A stretch of DNA of 26,392 nt from Chrysochromulina tobinii (taxonomy: Eukaryota > Haptophyta > Prymnesiales > Chrysochromulinaceae): contig JWZX01002784.1 in NCBI GenBank assembly GCA_001275005.1, positions 1-26,392 of the forward strand, read 5' to 3'. Positions 1-25,336 of the stretch are shown here, in pieces. A model generated the notes under the pieces. That model made no database searches. It was not told where the DNA came from and worked only from the letters and a program-made list of their open reading frames with translations. Position 1 is the stretch's first letter. The number at the start of each line of letters is the position of its first letter. The translations under genes were made by a program, and so were the position numbers.

Positions 1-24
1 CCCCCCACCCTCCCCAGGAGCTAC

Positions 25-559
25 CTTGGATAAGTTGGTCGGCTTGAGGGACACGATGCCCGAGACGGCGCCTCCGCCCTCGACGGAGACGGTGTACCGC
101 CCGTCCTTGTCGTCGAAGCTAACGACGTTGCCGTACTTGCCGTTAAGGTCAGCGCGCGCGACGAGCCCGCTCATGCGCACACGGTCCCCGGGGACCATAG
201 TAGGCGCAGTGGTGAGCACAGTAGGCGCCGTGGTGAGCATAGTAGGCGCCCCTCCAGCTGGGTTGACGGCGGCCACGTGTTGGCGAGCTGCCTCATGTGC
301 CGGCTGTGCCGCTGTCACTGGCTGCGCCGCCGCCTCAGCTGTGCTACCTAATTTGGGTGCCAGCCCTCCGGTGTTACCTAATTTTGGTGCCAGCCCAGCG
401 GGGCCCGGAGTGAGCCCTCGAGGGGCGCCGCCGCCGCTGGTCGCACTTCCGCTGGTCGCACTGCCAACGGTCGCCAACGGTCGGCCACCGGGGCCTGGCG
501 TGAGCCCTCGAGGAAGGCCAACGGTCGCCAGCTTGTGGGCGCTCTTTGGGAATCCACAC
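25..559 (-). other. Giant protein region 12: last exon in window (exon 55), conserved C-terminal module
   Basis: The exon starts at 559 after a TCATCAG acceptor and ends at a GTAGCT donor at 24, so the gene continues past the window. The first part is Gly/Pro/Thr-rich and repetitive: LPRGLTPGPGG occurs again as APRGLTPGPAG, LAPKLGNT as LAPKLGST, and APTMLTT three times. The last about 60 residues (GDRVRMSGLVARADLNGKYG, VVSFDDKDGRYTVSVEGGG, VSLKPTNL) match a small module I know from many algal proteins (RADLNGKxGxVxSFxxxxGRYxV, then LKPxNL). No function is known to me for that module. Confidence 0.75.
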
Positions 560-3500
560 CTGATGAGGGAGGCAATCAGCCAGGTCATCATGTGCAATCA
601 ATGGCAATCAGGGCGCTTTGGAGGGATCCACACTTGCAGTCCCCAAAATTGGCAGCGCTCGTGTCCACTCGATAGTCATCGCATCCGCCCGAGACAGCGC
701 CGCCTGCCCTCTTTGGCCCATCGTTATCATCATCATCGTCGTCGGCGGCGGCGGCGATGCTGCCGCGCTGTTGGAAGCGTTTCGCCATCTCGCTGCCCCC
801 GCCCAATGCCGATGCGGCCAATGCGGTAGGCATGGCCACCACCTCCGCCTTCGCCCTTGCCTTCGCCTCCGCCTCCGCCCTTGCCTGCATCTCCGCCTCC
901 GCCCTTGCTTTCGCCTCCGCCTCCGCCCTTGCTTGCATCTCCGCCTCCGCCCTTGCCTTCGCCTCCGCCTCCGCCCTTGCCTGCATCTCCGCCTCCGCCC
1001 TTGCCTTTGCCTCCGCCTCCGCCCTTGCCTTCGCCTCCGCCTCCGCCCTTGCCTTCGCCTCCGCCTCCGCCCTTGCCTTCGCCTCCACCTCCGCCCTTGC
1101 CTGCACCTCTCGCCTTCGAGCTTCCTCTTGTGCAGCTTGTGCAGCTTGTGCAGCTTGTGCAGCTTGTTGTTGTGCAGCCAGTTGCGTCACTTTCAAGGCC
1201 TCTGCATCTTGTGCCGCCTTGGCAGCCTCAGCCGCTTGCTGCGCCGCCGCTTGCTGCGCCACCGCCGCTTGCTGCGCCGCCGCTTGTGCCGCCGCTTGCT
1301 GCGCCGCCGCTTGTGCCGCCGCTTGCTGCGCCTCCGCCTCCGCCTGCGCCTGTGCCCTCGCCTGCGCCTCCGCCCTTGCCTCCGCCTCCGCCCTCGCCTC
1401 CGCCTGCGCCTTCGCCTCCACTTGCGCCCTCGCCTCCGCCTCCGCCTTCGCCTCCACACCCGGCTGGACCGCTCCAAACTGAGCGCCCCCGGCCACGCGG
1501 AGGACGAGTGAGCCCACCGCGGCGCGCATCAGGTTGGCGGCACTCGCCGAGTCGTGGACGCTGGTGCCGTTGATGGCGAGGATGACATCTCCGCTGCTCA
1601 GCTCACCTGATGAGGGAGGCAATCAGCATGCAATCAGCGACCTCCACCAATCGATGACATCTCCGCTGCTCAGCTCACCGCACTGCTGTGCCAGCCCGCC
1701 GAGCATCATCTCCACGTGGGAGATCAAGGGAGATCAATGGAGATCAAGGGAGATCAAGGGAGATCAAGGGAGAACAGCTCACCACACTGCTGTGCCAGCC
1801 CACCGAGCATCATCTCCGCGATGCGCACCCCCCCACCCGGGCCGTCGACAGGGATGAGCTGGACGCCGACCGCCGTGCTCGCGCTGCTTTTCTCGAGATA
1901 CACATCTCGAGGGAGATGCACATCTCGAGCGGCGCCCAGCAACGCATCTCGCGGCTGCGGCGGCGGCGGCGGCGGATCGCGCGCGGGCGGCGGCGGCGGC
2001 GGCGGCGGAGGCTCGGGTTTCGTCCATGAACTCTCTCCAGTGGCGCGATTGTAATAATAGGTCTGCCCACTGGCCTCGTCGAGAATCTCGTCCCAAATCG
2101 CCGGCACCTCGCGCATCTCCGGAGCCGAGATTGGAGCCGAGATCGGAGCCGAGATTGGAGCGGCTCCCGCCCCACCAGCCGCCGCCGCAGCGGCAGCCTC
2201 CGATGCCGAGCCGCCGCCCGCCGCGGCGATGGCCTCGGCGGCCGTCTTGACGCGCATGACGCCGCTCGGGCTGGCGTTCAACGGCTCCCCGGCCGTTCCG
2301 ATCAGGACCAGGTCGGACAGCTCGTCGGGATTGGCGATCCAACGGTCAGAGAAGATGGTGAAGCACTCCTGCCAAAATCAGGGATCATCAGAGGGAATCA
2401 GAGGGAATCGCTGGCCAGCTGTCCGAATCCACGCGACTCACCTGCTGCGCCTTTTGTCATCAGGGATCATCAGAGGTCATCAGGGGTCATCAGGGGCCAC
2501 AGGGGTCATAAGCCAGCGACTCACCTGCTGCGCCTTGGCCACGTCCGTGCCTTCGAGGACCATCATCATGTGGCATTGAACGTCGGCCTGCCACACGCTC
2601 GACGTGCGTCCGCTCGAATTACGCCCGTCATCCCGCCATAGCATCGTGGGCGGCGGCGGATGCGGTTTCGGACCGCCCACGCACAGACGGCACCAGCGCC
2701 GTGGGACGCAGTGCATCGCATCCAGAGGCGGGGGTTCATCGGTCGACGTGGCGACGGAGCCGAGGGCGACAAATTCGGGCGAGGGCGGCACAGCCCGCCA
2801 CAGAAAGAGAGGCTGTGCGTTCGCGCCCTTTTCTTGCCAGACCAGCCGGTAGCGGATCGGGAGTGGCAGCAGTTGATCGACGACCGTCGAGAGGTAGTCG
2901 GAGGAGGCGAGCGATCCAGCGGCCGTGTCGGTGATCTCGATCACGCGTGCCGACTTGAGGGGAGTTTCATGACCCGCCACGGCATAGTGGCCTAGCGAGA
3001 CGCGCACACGCGAGCGACGCTTCCAGCTGATGGCGCGCCCGTCATGGTCCACGTCCGCCTGCCGTGTCAAGAGTTGGCCCCGTCGAGAGGTCATCAGAGG
3101 TCGTCGGAGGTCGTCAGAGGTCGTCAGAGGTCATCAGTGGTCATCAGAGGTCACCAGAGGTCATCAGAGGTCATCAGTGGTCATCAGTGGTCATCAGTGG
3201 TTCTGAGTGCTCATCACCTCCCACGTTGAGAGTCATCAGAGGTCATCAGAGGTCATCAGTGGTCATCAGTGCTCATCACCTCCCAAATCGAGAGTCGGCT
3301 CGGGCTCGTGCCATCAGTGGTCATCAGTGGTCATCAGTGCTCATCACCTCCCAAATCGAGAGTCGGCTCGGGCTTGTGCCACCCTTGTTGGACCAAATTA
3401 GGTTCACAGACTTGGGCTGCTTCAGCTTGAACTTGAAGGCGGCGAGCGCCGTCTTGGGCACGTGCTGCGCCTTGGGCGGGCCGTCCGCGCCTTCGTGGAG

Positions 3501-6500
3501 CTCTGGGATGGATTTGGGAGCGAGCACCAGACTTTGGAGCATCACCTGATGAGGGAGGCAATCAGAGGCTCATTAGTGGGATGGATTTGGGAGCGAGCAC
3601 CAGACTTTGGAGCATCACCTGATGAGGGAGGCAATCAGAGGCTCATTAGTGGGATGGATTTGGGAGCGAGCACCAGACTTTGGAGCATCGCCTGATGAGG
3701 GAGGCAATCAGAGGCTCATTAGTGAGGTCATCAGTGGTAGTCAGAGGTCATTCATCAGTGGGGTCATCACCTGTGTCGAGCCATCCGTCTCCAGCAGGCC
3801 CGGGAATTGCGAGCTCCATTCATCAAGGGAGATGAGACCATCGCCGTCCGCATCGAACGAGCGAGCGAGTGCATGCACGTCCTCGATTTGGCTCTGGCCC
3901 GACACTTGCATCGCACCTGATGAGGGAGGCCATCAGATTGATGAGGGAGGCCATCAGATCTCATCAAGTGGCGCACGCAGGCAGCTGAGTAGCATGCACG
4001 CCCGTCCTTAGAGGCAATCAGCGGCAATCAGCGGCAATCAACGCACCGAGCCATTCGAGACCCGCCGCGAGCTCCGAGCAGCTCATCAGAGGCAATCAGA
4101 GGCAATCAGAGGCAATCAGAGGCAATCAACGCACCGAGCCATTCGAGACCCGCCGCGAGCTCCGAGCAGCTCATCAGCCCATCTCGGCGCCCGTTGATCG
4201 CACGGTACAAATCCACCACCCCGAACCTGATGAGGCACGCAATCAGGCAGCTCCTCAGCATGATGAGGCACGCAATCGGGTGTGAGTCCACGAGCCCCCA
4301 AAGTGGTAATTAGCGGCAATTAGTGGCAATTAGTGGCAATTAGTGGCAATCAGTGGCCCATCACCGTCGCTTGCGCATCTCCTCCGCAAGCCGCCAGCGC
4401 ACGGCAGAGGCGATCAGCAACGGGTACTCGTCTTCAGTATTGAGCACCCATCTCAAGGTTCGTCCGTTTCTTGGCCAGTAACCCCTGCGGCCGTCGGCAG
4501 CAACCATCAGAGGTCATCAGAGGTCATCTGAGGTGTCATCAGAGGTGTCATCAGAGGTCCTGCATTTGACGAGGCTCACCTGCGGACGTCGACGGCACCC
4601 AGAGACCTCCTGGAACCATCGCCGCCTGTCGTGTGGGGTGTCCGCGCGCAGGACGCGCAGCAGCAGACGGATTTGCTCCGGCTGGTACGAGAATTGGGAG
4701 TCGACGAACCTGATGAGGGGCGCAATCAGGCAGCTCATCAGCATGATGACGGATTTGCTCCGGCGGGTACGAGAATGGGGAGTCGACGAACCGCACGCAT
4801 GCAAGCGCCGTCTTGAGCTGAAGCTGTAACGGCTCCGCGTACGGCGTCTCGCGAGGCTCTGGGGAGATCGCATCGAGGAGCGTCGTGTCGGGCAGCCGGA
4901 GCCCCACGGACGCGCGAGAGCCTGGTATGAGACCGTGCCCCTGCTCGATGGTGAGGTACAAGCTCATCAGTGGTCATCAGAGGTCATCAGTGGTCATCAG
5001 ATGTCATCAGTGCCACTGCTCGATTGTGCAAGCAGGCTCAACTAGGGATCATTAGGCAGTCATCAGAGGTCATCATGGGTTCATTAGGCGGCCATCAGAG
5101 GTCATTATAGGATCATTAGGCAGTCTCATCAGAGGTCATCATAGGATCATTAGGGCTCATCACTGGTCATAGCGAGATGCAAGCAACCTCGCAAGCTCTC
5201 GGCCTCACGCAGCGAGAGGACGACCCAATACCGACCCGTCTCGCCGCGCAGAAACGTCTGCGTTCGCATCAGCTCGCAGAACGCGTCTGACGAAACCGTC
5301 AACGACCCGTCGGGCGAGACAGCCCCCCCACCCCCAGGCCGCCGGAGCTCGTTGACGAAGACTTCCACAGCCTCGGCGTCGCGTGCGTCCTCCTCAGGGC
5401 GCATCCCGAGATCCACGAGGATGCGTCGGAGCGCCGTCTCGGGCAGCTGGTCGGAGGGCCCGTCCTCGGCCTGGCAGGGTGGAACCAGCCGCGTCAGTCT
5501 GATCATCAATGCTCATCAGGGCTCCTCAGGGCTCATCAGGGCTCATCAGTGCTCATCAGGGCTCATTAGGGCTCATCAGGGCTCCTCTCCTGGTAGAGTT
5601 GGACCAGTCTCGTCAATCTCTCTCGCTGCACGTCAGTCAGGGCCTCGAGGTCGACAGGCTCGAGAGGCTCATTCGAGTCCTTGTCCTCCTTGCTCCGCCC
5701 AAAGGACAACGGCGCCCGAAACGGCAGCCCGGGGAGCGAGGGCATCTTGAGCGCCGTGTCGGGCATCTTGAGCGCCGGCACGCCCGCCATGACGCTCGCC
5801 ATCACGCCCGACACGTCGACCGGTACGCCCGGCACGGCGCCCAGGATGCCCGACACGGCGCCGAGCACGGCGGACCTCGCGCCCGGCACGGCGCCGTCCT
5901 GGTCACTCACGTCCGGCAGCCACTCCATCGTGATCAGCAGGTTCTTCAGCCGCCGGTGGTTGACGAACCGCCATCGCGGCTGCGTGTGGTTGCCCGAGAA
6001 GAGCAAGTACGGCGGCCAGTGCAGCGGGCCGCGGTTCTCAAGCATCGTTCGTAGCACGGCGAACTCGCTCGCCGGGAAGAAGGCGTGGCCGGAGGCGCCG
6101 CCCAGCATGCCCTCCTTCTCGTACGGCGACTTGGCGAGGCTCGCCAAGCTCCAAGGGGAGAGCTTCTCGTGCTCGCGAGCGTACTTCTCTTTGACGAAGT
6201 TCTCGGGCTCTTCGACCTGATGAGCGACACAATCGAGCGCACTCAGTCGCAATCCGAGGCCATCAGGATGCAATCAGTACGCAATCAGGGCGCAATCAGG
6301 GCGCAATCAGAGGGACGGTCGGACCTCTTGTTCTTGCTCCTTTTGCTGCTGCTGCTGCTGCTCCTTCTCCTGCTCCTCCTCCTGCTCCTGCTGCTGCTCC
6401 TGCTCCTGCCCGAAGGCCGCGACGGCTTGGGAACCATCGGCGCCCATCTCGGCGCTCTCGGTGCCCATCTCGGCGCCTTCGGGCAGCGAGCGCCGCGCGA

Positions 6501-9500
6501 GCGCTGTCGTGAGCGCTGCGGGCGGTGCCGCGGCCGCCCCCGCCTCGGTGTTCTCGAGCAGCGCGAGCACGCGGTCGATGTCGATGCCGCCCGCCCCTGC
6601 GGGCTTCCCGCCCGCCGCGTCCATTGCCACCTGAATCTGTTTGCGCGTGCTGCTGCTCGTCGGGATCGTGTTGCTCACCTGTGGGGAGAGGGCGCCGTGG
6701 TGAGCACATGCATGCAAGGCAGGGGTGCTCGCGTATGCGAGCTGCATCGCCACGAGCTGCATCCTCGGAGTCGTCAATCTCAAGTGGCGCACCGAGTGAT
6801 CGACCGGGTCACGAAACAGGTCGAGCTTGCGTCGGGCCGACCAGCCCTCCTCGGATAGATCTCGGAGCTTATCTGACGGATTCGTCACACCCGAGCGCAA
6901 GAAGGAGGTGCTCACCATGGCGCTCACACGCAGGCCGTCCTTGTCGGCCCCTCCGAGCAGAGTGTGCTCTGCACGAAGCCCAAGCATTGCATTCTTGCGC
7001 CACACGTTCTGGGCACGGTGCATGGAGTCGCTTGAGTTGGGGGGGGGGTCATCAGAGCTACTCAGAGCTATTCAGAACTCATCAGTGCTCATCAGGAGTC
7101 ATCAGGGGTCATCAGAGCTCATCAGCGGTCATCACCTGGGCGCAGTGCAGGCACCAGAGCTCGAACTGGACTCGCTCAGTTTGGAATGACTTAATGAGCA
7201 AGAAGGCGATCACGTCGTCGAGCTCGGCCCGCAATCTCGCGTCGGCCGTTGGCAACGCTAGGAGCTGCGCCTTACGCGCACTCACCTGATGAGGGAGGCC
7301 ATCAGATTGATGATGGAGGCCATCAGATCTCATCAGGCGCAATCAACGGCCATCAGTCCTTGCGAGCGCTCACCTCGACGCCTCGCCCCTTGCAGCTCTC
7401 GAGCTCGATGAGCTTTTGGACCTGATGAGGGACGCAATCAGGCAGCTCATTCGCATGATGAGGGACGCAATCATGCAGTATCGAGCTCGATGAGCTTTTG
7501 GACCTCTGGAATGACGAAGAGCACGATCTTCTGCCCCTTGCCGATGCCGCGCATGCGATAGGCCGCCTGCGCGTAGTCACGGAAGATGAGGTCCGCCGAG
7601 AGGGTCAGGACGGCATTGGCCGTCGCCGTCTGCGGAATATCGGTGCCGGTCGTGTGGACTTGATCGTAAAAGGAGAAGCGTCGTTCCTTGGGTACACCGC
7701 ACTGCTCGAGGGTGCCATGGGGGCTCCGTCAGTGGCAATCAGAGGCAATCAGAGGTCATCAGAGGTCCTTCAGAGGTCCATCAGAGGCAATCAGAGGCCA
7801 TCAGAGGCCATCATAGGCCGTCAGAGGCGATCAGAGGCAATTGACGAGACTCACCTGCTCGAGGGCCATGGGCGCCCCGCCCGCCCTCAGGATGATCTTC
7901 TTCGTCCCTCCCGAGATGAGATACACAACCCCGTCGTACTGCTCGGCTGGCAGACCCTCGAGTAGCCGGCGCGCCACCTGCTCATTGTTCAGCCCGGTGA
8001 CGAGCGCGCCCGCGTCGATGAGCGCATGCGGGCACGGCCGCAATGCCGTCACGGCCTCCACCAGTCCATCCACCGTCCAATCATTCCCCAAATTAACCTT
8101 GCTCACCTGATGAGGGAGGCCATCAGCATGCAATCAGCGACCTCCACCAGTCCGTCCACCGTCCCTCATTCCCCAAATTAACGATGCTCACCCCCCCGAG
8201 GGTCTCGGTAAGCGCGCGAAGCATCTTGCCATCATCTCCGTGAGCGTTGAAGAGGGAGGCAATCAGCATGCAATCAGGGGCTTTGCTCACCACCCGAGGG
8301 TCGGTAAGCGCGCGAAGCATCTTGCCATCATCTCCTTGAGCGTATACGCAGTCGCCCATCTCGAGGGGCAGCAGTGACGAGGGCGTGCCTGAGAAGCCAA
8401 TACGGGTGCCGAAGAGCATCTCGCCGCCCAGATCCTGGCCGTTGGCGGAGAGTTTCGTCGCTTGGTGCGCGGTCACTTCGGGGAAGACGATCTGCTCGAG
8501 ATAGTATCTCACCTGATGAGGGAGGCCATCAGCATGCACTCAGTGGCCATCAGCAGGAAGGCGATCTGCTCGTGAGAGTATCTCGGGAGAGCATCTCACC
8601 ACGTCGCCTCCCTTTTGGAGCAGCCCGTACAGCAGCGTCATGTACTCTCGATCAGCGAGGTCGAGCAGATGTAACGGCAAGATGTCCTGCTGCGTCACGC
8701 CCACATCCGAGAAGAGCGTCTCCACCGTCGCCTTCGAAGCGAGGCGAGCGCGCCGCGCATCCGACGCGTTCGCATGCTTAGCGCCCACCGTGCCGCGCAC
8801 ACGACGGTCGCCCGGCGCAGCCAGGATCCAACTAATCCAAAGGATCGCCGATGGCCGTTGGAGCTCGGAGCCGCTCTCGTTTTCAAACTCGGAGCGCAGT
8901 TGAAGCATGTTGGCGCCAAAATCGGCGGGGCGCAGCCCTTCGTACCGGTACGCGAGGATGGTCAGCCCGATTGCCACGTCAGGGTGAGCGTACTCGGACG
9001 AGGGGGAGGGCGCATCCTTGCCCACGAACGGGACCGCCAGGAAGCGGCGCGAGCGAGGGAGCGTTCCTAATTTGGCCATACTCTCTAGCTCGTGAGGTCG
9101 TAACAGCCCGTAATGCACGCGATTGATCTTCGCGAGCACATGGGGCAGCAGCGCATGCAGCCAATCGTAGCCCAGGTTGAGCATGCGCACCTGGCAATTG
9201 GAGGCGATTAGAGGCAATTAGAGGCAATTAGTGGCCATTCGAGGCAATCAGAGGCAATTAGTGGTTGAGCATGCGCACATGCACGTCCGCCAGCACCGCC
9301 TCCACCTCTGCAGTCGCACCGCCGCTCGCGAGGCAGCCGAGGATCTGCGCGTCGGACACGTCACGCAGCCCCTGGCGCCGCAGCCAGAGCACGAGCCATT
9401 CGGAGAGAATTGGTCGCATATGCTGCGCGTACCTGCCAGATTAGGGTCATGGTTCGGGGATGAGGGTGATGCATGTGCATGCGCGTACCATGCGGAGGAG

Positions 9501-12500
9501 AGGATGACGAGATGGGGCTGCCAAATTAGGGTCTTGGTTCGGATGAGGGTGATGCATGCATGCGCGTACCACGCGGAAGAGAGGATGACGAGATGTGGAA
9601 CCTGCTGCACCGACTTCTCCGCGACGCCCTGACGAACGGCAAGGACGAGCCGGAGGAGCAAGTCCTTCTCGTGACTTGTCTTGGCTTGACTTGACTTCTC
9701 GTGCGCGATGCCGGCCGCCGCCTGCCCGTTGGGGGGAAGGGCAACGGCGCCGCCGTCGCGCCGTCGGCGTTGCTCCATTTGGAGACGCGCACGCTCCTCT
9801 CCCGTCGCATCTCCGAGCGAGATCTCATCCTCGCGATCTCGCTGCAGCTCGCGCTGGATGTGCATCAGCGCGTCGAGCAGATGGCCGGGCAGCTCCCACC
9901 TGATGAGGGATGCCATCAGAGCTCATCAGTCGCAATCAGTCGCAATCAGCGCGTCGAGCAGATGGCCGGGCAGCTCCCACCGCTTCGGTGCAATCAAGGT
10001 GCAATCAAGGTGCAATCAAAGCTCCCACCGCTTCGGTGCAAAGTCAAGGGCATGCTTGTCGCCGAGCGGCCAGTTGAGCTCACTCTTTAACGGGTGCAGC
10101 ACCTGCCAAATTAGGGTCCGGGGCAGGCTGAGGGTGGTGTGCATGCACATGCACGGAGAGGGGGAGAGGTGCCAAACGAGGGTGTGCACGCACGATGTCC
10201 ACTTCGTCAATGACAGCGACCGAGCGTCCCCACACCTCGAGCATCTGCACCGCCCAGCCCGCCTGCATGCGCAGCATGCCCTTATCGAGCCTCTTGTCGT
10301 CCTTATTGGAGGAGCGCCGCAATCGCATCGCGCCTGTGGAGAAGGAGAGGCAGTCAGAGGTGATTAAAAGGCAATCAGAGGTCATAAGAGGTCATAAGAG
10401 GTCATCCGAGGTCATCCGAGGTCATCAGTGAAGGAGCGCCGTAATGAGCGCATCGCACCTCGGATGCGGTTGAGGTATCCCTTGGACAGGTTCTTGGGAT
10501 ACTGGCCGGTGTCGAGTAGGTGGAGGAGCTCGAGGAGCTTGAGCATAAAGGCCTTGAACGCGGCCGGCGTACCGAGCATCACCGCCCGCTCTTCCTCTGC
10601 CGTTCGGAGCTTGTCGAGGAGCGCCTGCGTCACGGCCGTGCGCCGATCGAAGTGGAAGGTCCACGTGGCCTTTCGTAACGGGCCGCCGCCCGAGAAGCAG
10701 CCACGGAGCACGTTGAGCGCAAAGGCGAGCAGCTGCGGAGGTACAATCTGGATCACGAGCGCGAGATTGCCCACGAGCAGCGCGAGCATCGGCGAGATGA
10801 CGGTCGTCTTGCCCTCGCCCATGAGCATCTGATGGCACACTGAGGTGCGCGCCTCGGCATCGCCGAGCAGCTTGGCCACGAGCGTCACCTGCGGGCGGAC
10901 GCAGCACGAAGGGTCATCAACGAATCATCACTTTGGTCATCAGCGCTCATCGGATGTGGTCATCAGATGAGGTCTTCAGACGAGGTTATCAGTGGTCATC
11001 AGCGGGACCGTCACCTGGGGCGGGCGCAGCACGAAGGTGGTCGTGTACTCGAAGAGTAGCATGCGTGGGTCGAAGAGGTATTTGCCACTCTCATCCCCAC
11101 AAAGTACCACATGAGGCCGCCGCCAGCGAAGGAGCATGGTGGCTTGTTCGGCGAGCACCACAGCCTCACTCCCATTCACAGGGTCGGACGGGGGGTGGGC
11201 CGCTTCCCGCTCGACCTCCGCCGCGAGCTTCTTCACCAGCTGAAGCAGCCGGATGCAGTGGTGCTGCCTGCTCACGCGGAGCACGAGCGACGCGCTTCGC
11301 TGCAGCAGCTCATACGCTTCATACGCCGAGAGGAGTGGATTCGAATCCTTGAGGACCTCTTCGCCCTCTTGGCACATCAACAGGCCACAAAGCATCCCGA
11401 AGTCCACCTTGGGCTCGCCTGTTGAGCGTGGCAATCAGGCGACCAACAGAGTCAATCAGGTGACCGTCAGAGGCCATCAGAGTCTATCAGGTGACCGTCA
11501 GAGGCCATCAGAGGCCATCAGAGGCCATCAGTGGTCGTGCGACTTACAGCCCGCCTCAAGTCCAAGCAGACGTGCGAGATGCTGTGCCTCCGTCGCATCT
11601 GTGCCGCCTTCGGTCGCCTGCTTGATGAGGTCGCTCATCAAGCTCTCCGTCGCACGCTTGTCCTCCGAAAGCAATGCCTCGAGCGCCGCACCTAATATGG
11701 GAGGCACTCGCAAGCCATAAGGGGCAATCCATGGCAATCAGAAGCAATTGGAGACTATCAGAGGCCATAAAAGAGCGAATTAGTGGCCATCAGACGCAAT
11801 CAGACGCCATCAGTCGCCATCAGGCGCCATCAGGCGCAATCAGGCGCACCGAGCTCGGCGGCCACCTTGCGGCGCCTCTCCGTGGCGCCGCTGCCGAAGG
11901 AGCCGAATCCCCGAAGGATCAACGGCTTGGCCGCGGAGCGGTTCTGATCAGAGAGCCATCGAAGATCACTGTCGAGCCGCGAGAGCATCTTCTTGGCGAC
12001 GACGGACTTGGCGGCGGCATGCGCGGAAAGAGGAGGCAGGGCTAATTGGTGGGCTCCCGCGCCGCCTCCGCCGCCACCTCCGCCTCCTCCTCCGCCGCCG
12101 CCTCCTCCTCCGCCGCCGCCGCTCTCACCGTTGCTCACCTCTTCCAAATATAGGAGAGGTGAGATCGCCTCGAGCACGTGGCCTTGAGCGCCGCCGGCCG
12201 CCCGAGCTCCGATCTCGGCCGTCGGAGATTGCATCTCGGCGTCAAACGGTTCGGGCATCCAGCGGACCGTCGCGTCGCAAGGCAGGGCGCGCGGCTGCAG
12301 CCCGTTGCGGTGCGTTCGACGGAGCTCACGCAACGATGGGAGCGACTCGAATGTGGGAGGGGGCACGTAGAGGGGTACCTGTGCAGCGGCGCGGGGGCGC
12401 CGTTGTGAGCGCTTGCATGCAACGAGGGGAGCGACTCGAATGTGGGAGGGGGCACGGTGGAGCGCCGTACCTCGCGCTTCGCGGCGCTGCTGCGGACGGC

Positions 12501-15500
12501 AATCACGTCCTCGCGAAGGCCATGGCAGAGCACAGCCAGGACCTCGTCTGCCATCCCTCCGTCCACCTTGCCCTTGAAGAGCCCAACCGACCGACCCATC
12601 TTTCCGAGCACTCCTTTTTTGGCCGTCGTGCCCGCGTAGCTCGGCATCTCGTTTGCGATCAACGGCTCGGCCTCGAGGAGGCGCAGCAACGGCACCTGTG
12701 AAGAGGGCGGGCGCCGTGGTGAGCACTTGCATGCATGCAGCGGCTTGGCCGATGGAGGAGACTCAGTAACGGAACCAGCTCGGTGGCGCCCGCTCGTCTT
12801 CACAAAGGCCATCAGAGGCCATCCGTAGCAATCAGTGGCAATCAGCAACGGCACCAGCTCGGTGGCGCCCGCCTTGTTGCGCGTGAGTCGGAACAGGAAG
12901 GAGCCCAGGCATGCTGGCGAGTCGTCGGGCAGGATCTTGATCTGCGGCCGATCGGACGGGAAATGTCCGAGAAAGGTCAGGGCTTCGGGGTAGGGTTCGA
13001 GTTCGGGTTCGAATCTCCACTGGATCTCCACCTGCAGAGCTTCCGTGAGAAGCTCGTAGAGCATCCGTGGGCATCCGTGGGCAATCAGTGGCAATCAGAG
13101 GTCACAGAGACGATTGACGAGACTCACCTGCAGAGCATCCGTGAGGAGCTCGTAGAGCATCCGTGGGCATCCATGGGCAATCAGTGGCAATCAGAGGTCA
13201 CAGAGGCGATTGACGAGACTCACCTGCAGAGCATCCGTGAGGAGCTCGTAGAGCATCCAGAAGCCTCGGCTGTCGCTGCTCAGGCTGAGCGTCTTGGCCG
13301 TCAGGCTGTTCAGCCCGCCGAGGCTTCCGAACGTGTTGGAGAGCGTCGTGCCGAGCCACTCGAGAGCGGCTGGCCCGCTAACTTCATTCGGCCGATTGTA
13401 ATTGAGGCTGAGCATCTTCTTCTGCCACAACGGCGCCGTCGATGGGCTGATGAGCGCGTGCGCATCGAGCGGCGCCTCGAGATCGACATCTCCCGTCCTA
13501 ATTTGGGCGGCGGCGTTCGCCTTGGCCAGATGCGCGGGAGACCAGGCGCCGTCGGACATGCATGCTTCAAGGAAGGCCTTGCGGTGTGCCAAATAGGGAT
13601 CGGACGCGCCGTGGTGTTGCAGCAGCAGCAGCTCGTCAGGTGTGCTCAGCCGGCACTCGGGCGCGATGAAGTCGAGCTTCGCCACATACCTAATGAGGGA
13701 GGCGCTCACGGTTCATCCCATGCAATCAAGTCATCGGGGTACTGAAGGAGCTGCTCGGCATCTTCCCAAGTAGGGAGGCACTCATCGCTCATCAGTTGCA
13801 ATCCAGTCTTCACGTACAGAAGGAGCTGCTCGGCATCATCCCACGGGCATTGGAGCTCGGGGCAGCAGCGCGTCGCGAGCGAGAGACGTAACCGACATGC
13901 ATGCGCGCACGGGTCGACGTCCTCGTTCAGGTCGGCGAGCAGCGCCCACAGCTGCGCCTCCTCCCGCGTCATCGACGTGTCGCACGAGCAGCAATGGCAA
14001 AGCCCACAGACCTGAGAGGAACACGCGGCGCCGTGGTGAGCGCTGGCATGCACGGCAGGCCATTAAGGTCAGCGCCAATCCACTCGTTAAGGACTCATTA
14101 GGAACTCATTCGGGACTCATTCGGAACTCTTTAGGGACTCATTAGGAACTCATTCGGGACTCATTCGGAACTCATTCGGAACTCATTAGGAACTCATTCG
14201 GAACTCATTCGGGACTCATTCGGGACTCATTCGGGGCTCATCACCGCCTCGTAGTCATGCGCGAGCCAGCGCAGCACGAGCAGGTAGATGGCCGCCGCGA
14301 GCGACGGAGGCGTCACGAAGGCGGTCGACCGGTGGATTGGGTACAAGTAATGTCGTGAAGACGGCAGGTTCTCGGCCCACCCAGGCGCGTGCTGAGCGAG
14401 GACCTGTGGGACCCGGCGCCGTGGTGAGCACTCGCATGCACGGCAGCTCCTCATCAGGCGCAATCAACGTACCAATTGGCCCGAGAGAGGATCCGTCATC
14501 AGGCGCAATCAACGTACCAATTGGCCCGAGAGAGGATCCGTCATCAGGCGCAATCAACGTACCATTTGGCCCGAGAGTGGATCCGACGGGTCGGCCAGCA
14601 GGCACGGCTTTGCAAGCGCCGGGATGAGCACGAACAAATCTCCCTCGGCCGAGCTCAGCAGCAGCGCGTGTGGAATGCCCTCAAGGAAGGCTCTAACGGT
14701 CGCATTGCTCGTCCACGTCACCTGATGATGTGGAACGCAATCAGTCGCAATCGGGAGCAATCGGTCGCAATCAGTGGCCACTCACCTACAGCCCCGGGTG
14801 CTCAGTGGCAATCAGAGGCAATTAGAGGCAATCAGTGGCCACTCACCTCCAGCCCCGGGTGCTCGAGCGACGCGAGCCGAGCCAGCCCAGGGTAATGAAT
14901 GACCTTAAATGAGAGGCCCAGCCTGGGCAACTCGACCAGGTCCAATGGCAGCTGTGCGTCCGCCTGACCAACATGGGTGATCAGAGGCTATTAGAGGCAA
15001 TGAGAGGCAATTAGAGGTAATCAGAGGGCATGAGTGTGGCAATCAGAGGGGCTCAACGGCAATCAACGGCCATGCGTCGCAATACCACGGCAATCACACC
15101 CGCCCCTCGCAATCTCGCAATCTCGTAAATCAAGCATACCAGCCCCTCGCAATCTCGCAATCTCGCAATCAAGCGAATCAAGCGAATCAAGCACACCCGC
15201 CCCTCGCAATCTCGTTCTCGAGGTGACCAGAGCAGCACGTGCGCGAGGTCGTCCAATCTCGAGAGCAGCGAGATCAGCTGGCCGAGCGCCGTGCCGGGCG
15301 CGTCTTGCAGGTGCGTGAGCAGCCGCCGCGCTTCGTCATCCATCGGCTCGCCGTCCGTCGCGAGAGGAATGCGTCGCACCACCGCCTCATTCGCATCCGT
15401 CAGCAGCACAAGCAACTCCGACTCGGTGCCGCCGCCGCCGCCGCCGCCCCCGCCGCCGCCATTTTCATTCGCGCCAGCATTCTTTTGTTCCTCCAAGGCG

Positions 15501-15556
15501 GCCGCAGCGTCCGCATTCCCGCCCGTCGCGCTCGGGTTCCGTTTCTTCTTGGCCGT

Positions 15557-15587
<31 letters not shown>

Positions 15588-18500
15588 GCTTCGCCTTCGA
15601 TGGCGCCATCCGAGTGCTGCCAGAACTCATAGCATCGGAGTAACGCCTCCGGCAGCAAACCTCGCAAGTAGCGCCCGGGCAGGTACGTCATCGCGCTCGA
15701 GACGGCGCCCCGTCCCCTGTGCGTCTTGGGACGATGGACCAGGACCGAAGGGGCGGGCACCGGGTTCGTCAACTCCGCCCGCAGGTTCGTCAGCAGCTGC
15801 TCGCCACCCGTCCAGTGCGGCTCGGGCGCCGTCGCGAGCGCCGTCTGCCCGATGGGTATCTCGGCAAGGCAGTAGCGCGTGTCGGTCGTCGACTCGAGTA
15901 CCTGAGGACCGACGCAATCAGAGGCAATTAGAGGCCATTAGAGGCGATTAGAGGTCACCAGAGGTCATCGGAGGCCATCAGAGGTCATCAGAGGCCATTA
16001 GATGTCATCAGAGGCCATCAGAGGCCATCAGAGGCCATCAGAGGTCATCAGAGGTCATCAGCGGCCATTAGAGGTCATCGGCTCGAGTACCGGCAGCCAA
16101 CGACGTCCATAAGATTCGAGACGCCACACGTGCACAGTGAGCGGCTGACGAATCACCATGATCTCGCGCACGCCCAGATCGGGCAGGACCACGTGGAACA
16201 AGACGTACGCGTCGCCCGAGCCGCAGTTCTTGAGCACCGCCTTTGAATCGGCGAGCGCGGGAAGCCTCTTCTTGGCTTCGTCAAGCGCGTCGCGCACCCA
16301 GCCCACCTCTCCTCCCAGCCCGAGATCTCCCAGCCCGAGATCGGCCGAGGTTGGGATGGCCATCCCAAGCACCTTCAGAGGGCTTGGGATGGCCATCCCA
16401 GGCACCTTCAGAGGGCCTGGGGGCGAGCGGCTGTCCGGGTCCCAAACCTGACGCAACCAGAGGCAATCAGAGGCGATTAGAGGTCTCCAGAGGCAGTCAG
16501 AGGCCCAGGAGTCGGAAACCTAAACCTGCACGTCGTGCTCGACGGCGATCAGCCTCAATATCTCAATCTCAATCTCAATCTCAATCTCAATCTCAATCTC
16601 GCACCTGCACGTCGTGCTCGACGGCGATCAGTCTGTACCAGAGCCTATGCTCTGTGCGCTCCACCTCGCCGCACTGGTAGCGCGCGTTGTCCTGGCGCGG
16701 CGCTCCGAAGACGGCAATGAAGTCCTCGTGCTCAGCGATGCTCAGGTCAAGCAGCTCCATCTGGTGCCTGATGAGGCAGACAATTAGAGGTCATTAGAGG
16801 CAATCAGGGACGCTCGGGGGCAGTCAGAGGCACTCAGAGGCCATCCACGTACTGATTGAGCGTCATTGGAGGCAATCAGAGGCACTTAGAGGCAATCCAC
16901 GTACTGATTAAGCGTCAGGTTGCCCAGCTGCACGTTGACCTCCGTCTCCGAGACGGTGGTTACGTGTTGACGAAGCCACGCCTCGTAGCTCTCCATCCCG
17001 CCCTTGGGTTTCGTCACCTTGACCGCCTCCTTGACGAGATCCTTGTACAGCGAGAAGCGGAAGGATTTCTTCTCGGTGGCAGCCTTTGCGGATTTCGCAT
17101 CGGCGAGGGCCTCGGGGCCGCCCAGGACGACGCCGCTCGCGCCCAGGAGTGCGCCGCTCGCGCCCACCTGCCCGGCCCGCGGCACGAACCTTCCAGTGCA
17201 TCCCGGGATAGGTATCTCCGCCCACGCGCGCACGGCAGCGCGCTCCTCCTTGTGCTTCACGTCGCCCGAGAGCAGCCGCACGACATTCTCCATGATCTCA
17301 TTCGAGGCGCCGTGGTGGGCGTGCAGCCAGCGCAGCGTGCCTCCGAGCTCGCGCTGCCATAGGTCGAATACGTCGAGCGGCTCAAACCCGAGCGCTGCCT
17401 CAAGGTCGGCCACCTGATGAGGCAGCCCATCAAACGCAATCAATGGCAATCCGGGCGACATGGGCCACCTGATGAGGCAGCCCATCAGTGGCACTCAGCA
17501 GGCACTCAGCAGGCACTCAAGAGGCAATCCAGAGGTTCGTCAAGAGGCAACCAAGGGGTTCGTCACCTTCTTGCGCCCGCTCGCGCGCTCGCGTGAGCCG
17601 TGCAAGGCCACGCGCGGCTCAAGCTCAAAGTCATGGTGCACGTTGACGAAGACCCTGTGGGGAGGGGGCGCCGTGGTGAGCGCATACGCGTCGTGGTGGG
17701 CGCATACGCGTCGTGATGAGCATTTGCACGCAAGCGCCTACCGTGAGGAGAGCAGCGCAAACAATGGGAGCTCATCGCGAGCGTCATAGACGGCGGCGGC
17801 GGCGGCGGACTTGGAGGCGCCCGCCAGCATCGCCGCGGTGCGCGCGTCGTCTGCTTGAGAGGCCGCGATGGCCGAGTACGCGAAGGCGATGTGGCAGGCG
17901 AGCGAGCACGCGTCGGCCATTGCGGCCTCTCGGCGGGTGCGAGCGTACCTGTGGGGAAGGAGGGCATAGGCGCCGTGGTGAGCGGGTGCATGCTGGGGCG
18001 CGGCCTCGGCGACGGGTGCGGGCGTCGTGGTGAGCGCACCAGGAGAGAAGCAGAGGCACCACCTGTGGGGAAATGGGGCGCCGTGGTGAGCAGGCGTAGG
18101 AGAGCGAGCGCCGTGGTGAGCATACGTGGGAGCCGTGGTGAGCGCATGCATGCTATCACTGGTGTAGGGGGTCAGGAGAGGAGTAGAGGCATCACCTGCC
18201 CCTCGAGTAATGCATGCAGATCGGCCGTCGCCGTCTGCAGCACCTGCCGAGTACGACCCACGACGGGAGTGCGAAGCCCACGGACCGCATCTGCATCGGG
18301 TGAGAGTACGAAGCTCATCAGATGTAATCAGTGGTCATCAGGGGTCATCAGAGGCCATCACCTGCATCGGGTGAGAGTACGAAGCTCATCAGAGGTAATC
18401 AGGGGTCATCAGGGGTCGTCAGAGGTCATCACCTGCATCGGGTGAGAGTACGAAGCGCGCAAAGGACTCGACACGCATCGCAAGCCTCATCGCGTATAGC

Positions 18501-21500
18501 AGGACCTCCGAGGTACCTGTGGGGAGAACAGGGCGCCGTGGTGAGCCACACGCGCCGGGATGAGCACTTGCATGCCGAGGAGCAGCCACGCCGAGCGTGC
18601 ACGCGTACCGCTGCGCACGTAACGGCCCGGGTCGAGCTCGAGCGCATTCTCAAGGATCGACTTGACAGAGCCCAAGACCACCGACGGCGAGTGTGTCAGC
18701 TCCTGGAACAGCGTGCCCGCCGCCGTAGCGAGGTGACGCCGGTCGGGCGCCGGGCACACCTGGGGGACGAGGGGGGGGGGCGCCGTGATGAGCACTTGCA
18801 TGCCGAGGGTGATGCGGGTGGGTGGGCGCCGAGCAGACCGTGGGCAAAGTCTTGGGCGCATCGGCCGGCTGCCACTCGCCCGGCTCGAAGATTGCGGCGT
18901 CGAGGGTGCGCTGCAGCTCACGATGGGCGAGAGCGGCCGTGCGCGCGGGCTCGGCAAAGAAGCGAAGCAGCAAGGGCACGCGAAGGTAGGGCATGAGGAG
19001 GCTCTGTAGCAGGACTTCGACGTCGGCGGGCCGCAGAGCGCCCCCAAACTCGGGCAGCTGACGCAAATGAAGGATGTCCTCTTCGGAATGGACGGGTTGG
19101 CCTGCGAGCGTACTCGGGTCGGCAGCAGACGGCGGCAGACGTGGCTTTGCAGCACGCCCGAGCGTCGCGGCGAGCATGTTGCCTAATTTGGAAGTGCCCT
19201 TGAGCAGACCGGTGCCCGATCGGGACTTGACCGTTTCGGGATTGGTGGCGAAACTGTCCGAAGCAGCCACCGAGAGCGCGTCATCCGCTGTCAGGAGTTC
19301 GCCGCTATTCTCGGCGAAGCTCATCTTACTGACTAGCACCTGTCTGCCCCCCTCCTCTTCGCTCTCACTGGATCCCGATTCGTCATCTCCTCTGCCTCCC
19401 GAATCGACGCCCTGCATGCCCACAGCCGCCGCCGCCGCCGCGCCCGCCGCCGCACCCGCCGCTGCAAGCTTGGCAGCCCCCTTCCCAAGACTCGACGACA
19501 AGACTTGCTTCTTGGCGATGTTGAGCGCCGCGCTCCCCGCCACGCCAGCGGCCATGCCAGCCCCCTTGTACACGGCGGCCTTGGCGCTCGACACAGCCGC
19601 ATCAGCCGCCTCCTCAGCCGCCCTCCGCGTCTCATCCAAAGAAGGCAACTCGTCTAAAGACGACATCAGGTTGCCTTCTTTGGGCGGGTGGCCTTCTTTG
19701 GAGTTATCCTCGACGAGGGGCTTGTCGTCTTCGGCCCAGCCACAGCAGTCGAGCTTGCCTCCGAAGGCAAACACCTGTGGGGAAGGACAAGGCGCCGTGG
19801 TGAGCCCAGCCGCAGCAGTCGAGCTTGCCTCCGAAGGCAAACACCTGTAGATACCAGCGGAACGCCATCAGTGGCAATCAAACACACCCAATCTGCACCC
19901 AATCTCACCCAATCTCAAATCACACCTGGAATCGGCCGGTGAGCTCCTTCTCGTCCCTCCACTTCCATTTCCACACGAGCTTCGCGTCCTCGGCGATCCA
20001 CGCCTTCATCTCGGGCAGCGCATCGAGTGACGGAACCATCGAGGCAGTCACCTGAAGAGGGAGGCAATTGATGTCACTCAGACTCAGAGGCAGCGTGCGA
20101 GCTCGTGCTGTACACATAGATGGAATTGATGTCACTCAGAGGCAGCGTGCGTGCTCGTGCTGTACACATAGACGGAATTGATGTCACTCAGAGGCAGCGT
20201 GCGTGCTCGTGCTGCAACACACATAGAAGGACACGTCACGAAGCGTGCCGAGCTCAGGCAGGAGATCGATGAGGGTCCCATTCTCGCCCGAGAGATACGA
20301 GCGAAGGGACGACTCATCACGCGGGAAGCCGAGGTGCAACGCGAGCTGCCCGATGAGGGAACGTTCCGCAGCTCCAAACTCCATCGAGACCTTCCAACGG
20401 ACGACGTTGCACATGTGATCAGAGGCTGATCAGGGGAGCAATCGAGAGCAATCGAGGGCAATCAAGAGGCATAGCCCACCTCCCACCGGAAGACGTTGCG
20501 CATGCAATGAGAGGCTGATTAGGGGAGCAATCGAGGGCAATCAAGAGGCATAGCCCACCTCCCACCGGAAGACTTGACGCTCCGAGGGTGTGCCGACCGT
20601 CAGGCTGTGAAAGTAGTCCAGCAGCATCGTGCGCGCCGCTGCAAAGCGAGGCTGCAGTAGCTGCCCGTGCGCTGACTCGTCTTCCAGATGGCGCAAGTCG
20701 AGCGCGAAGGGGCCCGCCGTCCCGGGCACGTGACCGCCGTAGTGGAGGGAGAGTGCCGTTGGTGCGTCGCATGCCTTGATGCGGAGGACTGATGAAGGAG
20801 GCCATCAGTTGCGACGGTCAGAGGCCATCAGAGGTCATCAGAGGTCATCAGAGGCCATCCGAGGTCATCCGAGGTCATCAGTGGCCCCCCGAGGCCATCC
20901 GAGGCCATCAGGCCACTAGTGGCCATCAGAGGTCATCAGAGTGGACTTACCGGCGTCGACGAGCGCCGCGATGGCTGCAAAGACAAGCATCCGGGCTGCA
21001 TCAAAGGACCGCCCGAGCGGAACCGCGAGCGACGCAGCGGCAAAGTGGCGGCAGAGCAGACCCAACCACCGAATAATCGCCCCCTGCGTGTCGGAGGTCA
21101 GCCCGGGGCCGAGGCGCAGCCAGAAGCAGCTTAAGCTGAGCTCCTGTCCCTCCTCGCGCGCCACGGAGCCGCCGAGCGGCAGCGGATGCGGCAGCACGCG
21201 CAGGAACAGGTGCGTGATCAGCCCGAGACGGAGGGCGAAGGAGTTGTGGACGAGGCCGTGCTGAGCGCGGGAGATCGAGATCGAGATCGAGATGAGATCG
21301 GTACGAGATCGAGATCGGGCGGAGATCGATGAGGGGGTGGCCAGCATGTCAGTGGCTTTCAGAGGCACTCAGCGGCACTCAGCTGCACTCAGAGGCAATC
21401 AGCAGCAATCAGCAGCAATCAGCAGCCCCTACCTGATTCGAGAGCAGCGTGCAGCAGTAGCATGCGTGCTGCAGCGCGTTGGAGACGTCGGCGAGCGAAT

Positions 21501-23561: not shown

Positions 23562-25336
23562 ATGGTCGTCAACGTGGCCCCTGAGCCGACGGTGGAGTCG
23601 GCCTTGCGGCAGGTGCTCCAGTACGAGAACGTATCGTTTGGCGAGTCGGGCGAGGGTCCAGGGCAGTACAAGCTGCCACGCTTCATCGCGGTGACGTCCA
23701 AGGGCAGCCTCGTCATCTCTGACTTTGTGAACCAGCGGGTGCAGCTAGTGAGCGACGCGGGTCGGCACCAGCATACCATCGGGACGCACGGCACCGCCCC
23801 GGGCCACATCAACGGCCCGTCAGGCGTCGCGTGCGACAGCAACCACATCTTCTTGTGCGAGGGTGGTAACCACCGGGTGCAGAAGCTGTCGATCGCGGAC
23901 GGAACGCCGGTAGGGCGCGCGGGCAAGCACGGCCGGGATGCGGGCAACCTGTGGTGCCCCATGGGCGTCGCCGTCGCCATGCGCGCCCATGGAGATGGAG
24001 CTGAGAGTGCTCCCAACAAGATCGGCGAGGCCAGCCTGCTCTTCGTAGCCGACCACGTCAACGGGCGTGTCGCATGCTTCGAGGCGGATAAGATGGAGCA
24101 CGTGCGCACGTTCAGCGAGCGCGGCTCCGAGCCCGGCCAGCTGCTGTACCCCACGGGCATCGCCGTCAAGGACGATGAGGTCTTTGTCGCCGACACGGGC
24201 AACCACCGCATCTCGGTCTGTCCTCGAAGAAGGGAGAACCCGTTGATGACCACTGATGACTACTGATGACCACTGATGACCACTGATGACCGATGATGAA
24301 CTCTCACATCAGGTCTTCTCGAAAAAGGGAGAGTTCCAGCGCGTGCTTGGCGAGACCCCCGGCGGTGGTCCGGGCAGCGGCCCCGGCCAGCTGACCGAGC
24401 CACGTGGCCTCACCTTCGCCAAGGTGCCGCGCTGATGACCTCTGATGACCCCTGATGACCCCTGATGACCCCTGATGACCTCTGATGACCGAGCCACGTG
24501 GCCTCACCTTCGCCAAGGTGCCGTGCTGATTGTGCGCCACGGATTGTGCCACGGATTGCCACGGATTGCCACGGATCGCCACTATTTGGCCTCTGACCGA
24601 GCCTAAATGACACACTGAGCGGCTGAGATCGCCTCTGATCGCCTCGGATGGCAGCTGATGGCCACTGATTGCCACGGATGGCCTTGCATTCACCTTGCAT
24701 CGGCAGGGGTGGCTCGTAGTCGCCGAGTCGAAGCGTCTCTCCGTCTCGCATGCATGTGCTCACCACGGCGCTGAGTACCTCTGATGACCTCTGATGAGTC
24801 GAAGCGTCTCTCCGTCTCGCATGCATGTGCTCACCACGGCGGTCTTTGCAGGGGTGGCTCGTCGTCGCCGAGTCGAAGCGCCTCTCCGTCTTCTCGCCGC
24901 CCGGCATCTTCCAGCAGTGCATCGAGCTGCCTCACGTGGGCCAGCTGTGGGACTGCGGATTCGACTCGGTGAGCGAAGTCTGTTACGTGAGCGACATTCG
25001 GGCGGGGAGCCCCAAGATCTTTGCGCTCGCGATGCGCGGCGGCTCGTTTGATGACAACCTGTCCGAGGTGTGGACTGCCAGTGTGATTCCCCGACTGACG
25101 GCTATAGCTGATGGCCCCTGATGACGATAGGTGGCTAGCTGATGGCCCCTGATGACGATTGGTGGCTAGCTGATGGAGGCCCCTGATGATGATTGGTGGC
25201 TAGCTGATGGCCCCTGACGACGATTGATGACGCCCCTGAGGACCCTTTTGATTGCTCCCACACACAGGCGGAGAAGGCTTCCAAAAAGACTGCTCTCAAG
25301 AAGGCGGCCGAGGCCGAGAAGAGCGCGAAGAAGTGA
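23562..25336 (+). CDS. NHL-repeat six-bladed beta-propeller protein
   Basis: Four exons, all phase 0: 23562-24215, 24313-24423, 24852-25067 and 25268-25336, giving 349 residues and a TGA stop. NHL-type units follow each other: GPGQYKLPRFIAVTSKGSLV, PGHINGPSGVACDSNHIFLC, GNLWCPMGVAVAMRAHGDG, EPGQLLYPTGIAVKDDEVFV, GPGQLTEPRGLTFAKGWLVV and VGQLWDCGFDSVSEVCYVSD, each closing with a VxDxxNxRVxxF-like strand. Blade 5 is completed only when exons 2 and 3 are joined, which supports that junction. The last exon adds a Lys/Ala-rich tail (KKAAEAEKSAKK). There is no signal peptide, TM segment or RING. NHL propellers bind proteins or RNA; the partner here is unknown. The start is the first in-frame ATG, at 23562. 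The gene lies head to head with the giant gene. Confidence 0.85.
24216..24312 (+). repeat. NHL intron 1: exon copy plus TGATGACCAC array
   Basis: The first 25 or so intron bases (GTCTGTCCTCGAAGAAGGG...) are a diverged copy of the next exon start (GTCTTCTCGAAAAAGGG...). The rest is five or six TGATGACCAC units ending ACATCAG. Confidence 0.75.
24424..24851 (+). mobile_element. Large mosaic intron of the NHL gene with two family A cores
   Basis: In order it contains a TGATGACCCC array and a copy of the exon 2 end (GAGCCACGTGGCCTCACC...; 24397-24426 repeated at 24491-24520). Next is a GATTGCCACG array, then a copy of the exon 3 start (GGTGGCTCGTAGTCGCCGAG) running into GCATGCATGTGCTCACC and ACGGCGC. 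A second partial copy with the same core follows, ending in GTCTTTGCAG. Both cores lie on the plus strand, that is, in the sense direction of this gene. Confidence 0.7.
25068..25267 (+). repeat. NHL intron 3 with ~31-bp higher-order repeat
   Basis: Four copies of a unit of about 31 bp (CTGATGGCCCCTGATGACG plus ATTGGTGGCTAG), each carrying two of the usual 10-bp units. The intron ends in TTGCTCCCACACACAG. Confidence 0.65.

Follow-up and report, generated by a model that had tools for sequence, protein, structure and literature searches.

The window analyzed here is the whole of contig JWZX01002784.1 (C1626; 26,392 nt) of the Chrysochromulina tobinii genome, whose assembly comprises 53.15 Mb in 2253 contigs. 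It carries a DUF3638/DUF3645 gene on the minus strand, recognized by Pfam (PF12340, 4e-15; PF12359, 3.9e-15), and an NHL-repeat gene on the plus strand (Table 1). At the gathering threshold, Rfam gave no match in the whole window. Introns were called with a small home-made HMM gene finder, and all introns described below are predicted ones. The sample consisted of the window and 20 further stretches (10 from contigs C1-C10 and 10 from repeat-rich contigs). A total of 153 introns were called and 150 were kept; three were dropped, one because it lay on the strand opposite the window gene and two because they were too near an end. Throughout, T denotes a duplicated target stretch: the intron consists of the first copy (T1) plus an insert, and the second copy (T2) behind it is exon.

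Table 1. Genes and predicted introns of the window (T1 and T2, intronic and exonic copy of the duplicated stretch; insert families A and B as in the text)
Positions	Strand	Feature	Basis
1..23265	-	DUF3638/DUF3645 gene with about 50 introns predicted; continues beyond the contig	Pfam on exons; HMM model
560..633	-	Intron with weak T, family A end	Pair alignment
1607..1678	-	Tagged copy: T1 1653-1678, insert 1607-1652 opening with tag GATTGGTGGAGGTCGC, T2 1581-1606	Shared k-mers
3504..3724	-	Three near-identical 73-nt units, each an exon piece plus family A insert	
4710..4791	-	Intron: T1 4748-4791 (44 nt, 2 mismatches), insert 4710-4747, T2 4666-4709	Pair alignment
7422..7503	-	Cited intron: T1 7481-7503 (23 nt), insert 7422-7480 ending CATCAG, T2 7399-7421	Pair alignment
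8107..8191	-	Source intron: T1 8137-8191, insert 8107-8136; exon-derived T1 tail recurs in intron 1607-1678	
9191..9278	-	Intron: T1 9263-9278 (identical over 16 nt), 10-mer repeats as insert, T2 downward from 9190	Pair alignment
10889..11014	-	Intron of mirror type: its end holds a copy of the upstream exon end CCTTCGTGCTGCGCCCGCCC(C)AG	
12379..12470	-	Intron with T of about 50 nt and family B insert (GCATGCAAGCGCTCAC...CACAG)	Pair alignment
12696..12854	-	Intron with 12-nt T, family B end	Pair alignment
15902..16090	-	Intron with 18-nt T (2 mismatches), 10-mer array	Pair alignment
16524..16631	.	29-nt T around (ATCTCA)n insert	
18291..18456	-	T-insert-T-insert-T array; T 24 nt ending CAG; mirror type; insert starts GTGATGACC	
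18760..18838	-	Intron with weak gapped T, family B insert	Pair alignment
23562..25336	+	NHL-repeat gene; introns 24216-24312, 24424-24851, 25068-25267	Pfam; hand splicing
24216..24312	+	NHL gene intron 1, gapped T of about 20 nt	Pair alignment

The final part of the DUF3638 gene (842-1455) is low-complexity coding sequence with 6- to 24-nt repeats. Within introns of the window, for instance at 21920-22077 and 15917-16079, the interior is built of arrayed units of about 10 nt (TGATGGCCTC and similar). Each unit has a branch-point-like CTGAT, and the unit size is near one helical turn. At 9972-10028, a (TTGATTGCACC)n filler is present, in which 10-mer sequence is apparently mixed with the TTGCACC of the neighboring exon; it seems as if two templates might have been copied in alternation.

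Elsewhere in the genome, 58 matches to the light-harvesting profile PF00504 were found, 50 of which cover at least 130 of its 162 positions within one open frame. These probably highly expressed genes look mostly intron-free, in contrast to the window's gene. The best solved relatives of one such protein are of the FCPI-7 type (9jj8, 8z11 'iFCPI-7', and 9uh3), and we take 'iFCPI' in 8z11 to denote the haptophyte Isochrysis. Split light-harvesting genes were unusable for examining the presence or absence of introns, as their similarity to the intact paralogue is too low.

Copies of adjacent exons at predicted introns

An earlier note on this DNA had claimed that introns of the window are bounded by direct copies of exon sequence and had cited nine intron/exon pairs. 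This claim was confirmed. Alignment of each cited intron start with its own next exon gave scores of 12-42, and all nine pairs beat all 72 mismatched pairs, in which the intron start was aligned with another exon (mean score 7.2, maximum 11). In the pair 7503/7421, intron and next exon are identical over their first 23 nt, exactly as described. The other eight pairs, which had been put at 12-50 nt, are all real. Among them, 4791/4709 extends over 44 nt with 2 mismatches and 12470/12378 over about 50 nt with small gaps; with scores of 12-15, the pairs at 12854, 16090, 18838, 633, and 24216 are either short or interrupted by mismatches or indels.

The same note had proposed comparing intron starts with next exons against shuffled pairs, and a clear excess was observed when this was done for the window and the 20 further stretches. 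Of the 150 introns, 74 contain a copy of an adjacent exon at p<0.01 relative to shuffled partners, where about 3 would be expected. At this level, a downstream-exon copy is present in 50 introns and an upstream-exon copy in 43. The window itself accounts for 26 such introns (out of 53), and the pattern also occurs beyond the one gene singled out in the note, on other sampled stretches. In the remaining 76 introns, no T was detected by the shuffled-partner test; these may be older or of other origin.

The statement that nearly every downstream exon begins with GT proved too strong. Based on HMM boundaries, this is the case for 25 of 53 downstream exons in the window and 71 of 150 overall, which remains far more than 1 in 16. 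At HMM boundaries, the raw match profile shows a modest rise past the splice site, modest because these boundaries are often off by the length of T. In a stricter repeat scan, 18 of 88 repeats have AG/GT at the start of T (control 6, plus 1 double). No excess was seen for the mirror type, in which T ends with AG and the insert starts with GT (8 repeats; control 11, plus 1 double), and three mirror cases were recognized by eye (18456-18291, 11014-10889, and 7854-7702). The other 62 repeats belong to neither type; inspection of 45 of them revealed several nested or serial events and, for others, plain coding repeats. Two early unspecific direct-repeat scans, which are swamped by intronic 10-mer repeats, did not single out AG/GT: in one, AGGT took twelfth place among the contexts, with 107 of 1597 sites, and the other had no AG/GT peak.

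Families, sources, and telomeric repeats among the inserts

Two insert ends dominate between the T copies, TGATTGCCTCCCTCATCAG (family A) and GCATGCAAGTGCTCACCACGGCGCC...CACAG (family B). The family A end has 438 + 441 = 879 exact copies in the genome (reversed control, 0), with GT next in 298 + 292 = 590 of them, and the 25-mer of family B has 159 + 168 = 327. Thus, many similar introns appear to lie at different sites of one genome. We tested 20 copies per family, taken as the first of the match lists on contigs outside the earlier sample. For family A, T exceeds the 99% null in 8 of the 20 copies, all of which also exceed the null maximum of 14. For family B, 17 of the 20 copies have a CAG end by rule and entered the test; T exceeds the 99% null in 11 of these 17, and the null maximum of 14 in seven. 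The other 12 family A copies and 6 family B copies have no T by this test. In copies with T, its length is variable (11-41 nt); the family B inserts measure 31-81 nt, at most 49 nt in 7 of the 11. No fixed inverted ends were apparent when family inserts were viewed by eye. A possible third family, with the 5' end GTGAGTCTCGTTAATTGCC, has five exact copies only. Two family B loci, L069 (C101) and L078 (C235), both lack T and correspond to a single intron region that is present on two contigs, and the assembly thus appears to contain some duplicate or allelic stretches.

The inserts include pieces of other predicted introns, some with exon-derived tags of their source. A genome search with CGATTACTCTGATGATGACCTCTGATTGC (up to 2 mismatches) gave three matches, all exact, in three introns of a Lon protease gene on stretch L023. 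Its first letters are the exon-derived T of the intron ending at L023(-) 2958, so that the other two Lon introns are tagged by that source. The 30-mer CTCATCATGCTGATGAGCTGCCTGATTGCG (up to 3 mismatches) also has three genome matches (7433-7462, 4238-4267, and 4721-4750, minus strand), in separate introns of the window's gene. Both queries were chosen after their repetition within a gene had been seen. Moreover, window intron 1678-1607 holds TGGTGGAGGTCGC, the continuation of the exon-derived T1 of intron 8191-8107 (one mismatch to the exon).

Three inserts, picked by rule from family A copies with T, were searched genome-wide. The first is unique in the genome, the second is present on C111 (one copy) and on C298 (three copies, in three predicted introns), and the third occurs once on C19 and twice on C395. 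On C395, the stretch shared with C19 reads on as downstream exon and is duplicated there as T; the C19 intron therefore looks like a copy of the C395 intron that has lost its 5' part and shares its AG end. Since two of the three rule-picked inserts are also present on another contig, copying is not strictly local.

Within the sample, 49 of 125 introns have their best partner in all-intron similarity on their own contig and strand (17.4 expected by permutation), a comparison confounded by the 10-mer arrays, and complex k-mers were therefore used instead. A complex 18-mer is shared by 29 of 1673 intron pairs within a contig and strand versus 5 of 12,348 pairs between contigs. Permutation gave a mean of 3.9 within-contig pairs and a maximum of 18 out of 34; 16 of the 29 pairs fall in one tandem cluster and one in another, leaving 12. 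On the minus strand of L020 (C172), an identical 39-nt insert is found at two sites 512 nt apart (about 8419-8565 and about 8931-9087), both of which have the structure T-insert-T-insert-T (T length, 34 and 27 nt). Both T end with GCTC ahead of TGATTG, a hint that microhomology and serial copying in one event may have been involved.

If T is a property of a break and not of an element, it should be expected around other inserts too. In L025, a 57-nt CCCTAA-type array lies within a reading frame between 25-nt flanking copies. A genome search with CCCTAACCCTAACCCTAA gave 87 + 50 matches, and 16 loci besides L025, namely every distinct site away from contig ends among the 100 matches listed, were tested. 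T exceeds the 99% null in 8 of these 16 interstitial loci (among the matches listed), with scores of 12-47 and T of 13-51 nt; in L087, 47 of 47 nt are identical. These eight combine an interstitial array with a modified target, as would be expected of telomeric repeats placed at breaks. Flanks of different loci, which served as the null, score at most 11. A score of at least 19 is reached by 5 of the 16 loci (among the matches listed), by 1.75% of 400 random exon positions, and by 5.25% of random positions of any kind; scores above 10 occur in 6.5% and 10.7% of such positions, respectively. The other 8 of the 16 (among the matches listed) showed no T. Among them, L083/L093 and L096/L097 have nearly the same flanks pairwise and may represent a subtelomeric repeat family. 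The (ATCTCA)n insert of the window is flanked by T as well.

Spliced products of Lon and telomeric loci

Whether T lies outside the mature message was assessed by manual splicing of the Lon gene of L023 (C289), in which a single copy of each T was kept. With one donor shifted 4 nt by hand, guided by conserved Lon sequence, ahead of the final alignment, the spliced protein was aligned with its best solved relative (3m6a, E 5.6e-109), and the alignment runs gap-free over seven of the eight junctions; the gaps are confined to a variable stretch close to the eighth.

Seven T-bearing telomeric loci were inspected in the same respect. L087, L091, and L092 are exactly spliceable at equivalent points of the T copies, as is L025. 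In all four, the C-rich strand is the sense strand, and the ends are GT-AG in L087 and L091 and GC-AG in L025 and L092. L084 has a 69-nt in-frame telomeric insertion with GC...AG options on the G-rich sense only; in L085, L086, and L090, no exact splice option was seen inside T. The spliced frames of L025, L087, L091, and L092 are open and have a positive bias of 0.12-0.16 per codon, and the unspliced frames have stops or negative bias. These four telomeric inserts, which are located on contigs C386, C881, C1253, and C1289, read as precise predicted introns. The spliced product of L091 matches MatE (PF01554, 6.4e-7), with residues 1-123 on profile positions 29-151, across the junction. A PDB search with this piece found nothing, and against the NCBIfam MATE model it scored 38.6 bits, below the cut-off of 147.4; the spliced products of L025, L087, and L092 had no Pfam match. 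The features of spliceosomal introns, GT/GC...AG ends and a restored frame, are found at the Lon junctions and in the MatE frame, and in the window gene by HMM only.

Possible routes of intron gain

The assembled DNA itself displays the duplications, T around unrelated inserts, copying between predicted introns, and, in one conserved gene, a collinear spliced protein; we infer that breaks were staggered and filled in and that splicing acted as a filter. We consider it rather probable that the predicted introns were gained at staggered breaks, which were filled in and patched and then filtered by splicing. The two strands would be cut some 13-50 nt apart, and fill-in of both ragged ends would duplicate the stretch between the cuts, giving T. 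Ahead of end joining, a patch would be added. Often this would be a copy of an existing intron, from the same or another gene, that is truncated at the 5' end and stops exactly at the AG of that intron; in other cases it would be telomeric repeats or another simple repeat. Where GT...AG or GC...AG falls at equivalent places of both T copies, the patch and one T could be spliced out, and the insertion, leaving the protein unchanged, would persist as an intron. Later events at the same site would add further units of T and patch. Duplications of 13-51 nt occur alike at intron pieces, telomeric repeats, and simple repeats, which fits the fill-in of staggered breaks and not the enzyme of one element. 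Against break repair stand the introns, family copies, and telomeric loci in which no T was seen, the lack of an excess of mirror-type repeats, and the inserts that recur on another contig. In addition, the exact AG at which copies end would be explained no less well if intron RNA had been reverse-transcribed.

Several features of this proposal have counterparts in known systems. For Daphnia pulex, staggered double-strand breaks have been described as sites of intron gain, where new introns likewise lie between direct exon repeats (33 repeats of 4-12 bp) and repeated staggered breaks enlarge introns; in contrast to the mostly unknown fillers given in that account (PMC4202315), T here is commonly 13-51 nt and fillers can be traced to introns or telomeric repeats. 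Rogers and Bendich report 213 introns with direct repeats, 4-30 bp long, close to their splice sites (PMC11782384). For mammals, PMC2246262 describes interstitial telomeric repeats as break patches with a target duplication in 6 of 130 rodent and 4 of 25 primate loci, whereas duplication is frequent here (8 of 16, among the matches listed) and some inserts read as introns. Fill-in of complementary 3' single-strand ends by CST and Pol alpha-primase, which is also a telomere complex, produces small tandem duplications; as PMC8355091 presents them, they come from mouse and human cells and lack intron patches. No report of telomeric-repeat introns or of 13-50-nt duplications at introner-like introns was found in the literature, which is weak evidence given limited journal coverage.

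A more specific version is possible but doubtful, namely that the machinery of telomere ends (telomerase and single-strand fill-in) or a related enzyme writes introns at internal staggered breaks. It would add either telomeric repeats, whose C-rich strand offers CTAAC, which would make a good branch point, or intron RNA copied from the 3' AG, with existing introns, often of the same gene, seeding new ones.

For the intron inserts, target-primed reverse transcription is a serious rival. The endonuclease and reverse transcriptase of a retroelement, acting in trans on intron RNA, would leave variable target-site duplications, the exact AG being the 3' end of the RNA and the 5' end being truncated. 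Long and variable duplications fit LINE-like insertion, and the copies do stop at the AG of their source and are truncated at the other end. We nevertheless regard a retroelement origin as unlikely, since telomeric and simple repeats are flanked by the same duplications and the mirror-type examples start with GT and vary at the 3' end.

The exact copy numbers of the two families (879 and 327) might instead point to introner transposition, with A and B as non-autonomous DNA transposons and T as the target-site duplication of a transposase. In known introners there are also many similar introns per genome, and one splice site can derive from the target duplication (PMC9860276, PMC7789003). However, duplications are given as 3-9 bp for earlier-described families (PMC9860276) and 3-5 nt for Amoebophrya introners (PMC7789003), whereas T in the family copies is long and variable (11-41 nt). 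It is shared by unrelated inserts, inverted ends of fixed sequence were not apparent by eye, and the exon tags in some inserts derive from a single source gene. This origin is therefore improbable.

The earlier note had favored a route in which duplication of an exon piece containing AGGT creates both splice sites. In this Rogers model, the foreign interior would have grown after the tandem duplication. As outlined in PMC4974935, it resembles our cases in the exon piece on both sides and the unchanged protein, and differs in that the interior here is foreign and usually supplies the AG. Literal cases with AG/GT inside T exist (intron 3096-3316 on the minus strand of L023, and the telomeric L087 and L091). 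The reading of the note is thus supported in part. As the main mechanism, the route fails: the upstream exon ends with AG in two of the nine cited pairs, and in the other seven it has no AG ahead of the duplicated piece, so that the AG/GT junction arises where insert and T meet, AG usually coming from the insert and GT from T. Moreover, foreign inserts lie between the copies, and recent cases with perfect T already enclose a family insert. We consider this model very improbable. An artifact of low-complexity DNA, mis-predicted introns, or assembly errors, conceivable in view of 2253 contigs, a simple HMM, and 10-mers that swamp naive scans, is hardly credible, as shuffled-partner and random-position controls were passed, perfect 34- and 47-nt copies exist, and Lon and MatE are collinear with T counted once.

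How new spliceosomal introns originate has long been debated, and few cases have been caught. Under the reading we prefer, gain at staggered breaks followed by fill-in, patching, and splicing, T marks the break, the tags in some inserts name the source intron, and the telomeric inserts provide a target scar independent of any intron element. If it is true, intron gain would be traceable event by event within one genome, and repair-driven gain would be distinguishable from transposition. If the machinery of telomere ends is indeed involved, introns would spread via repair without any transposon.
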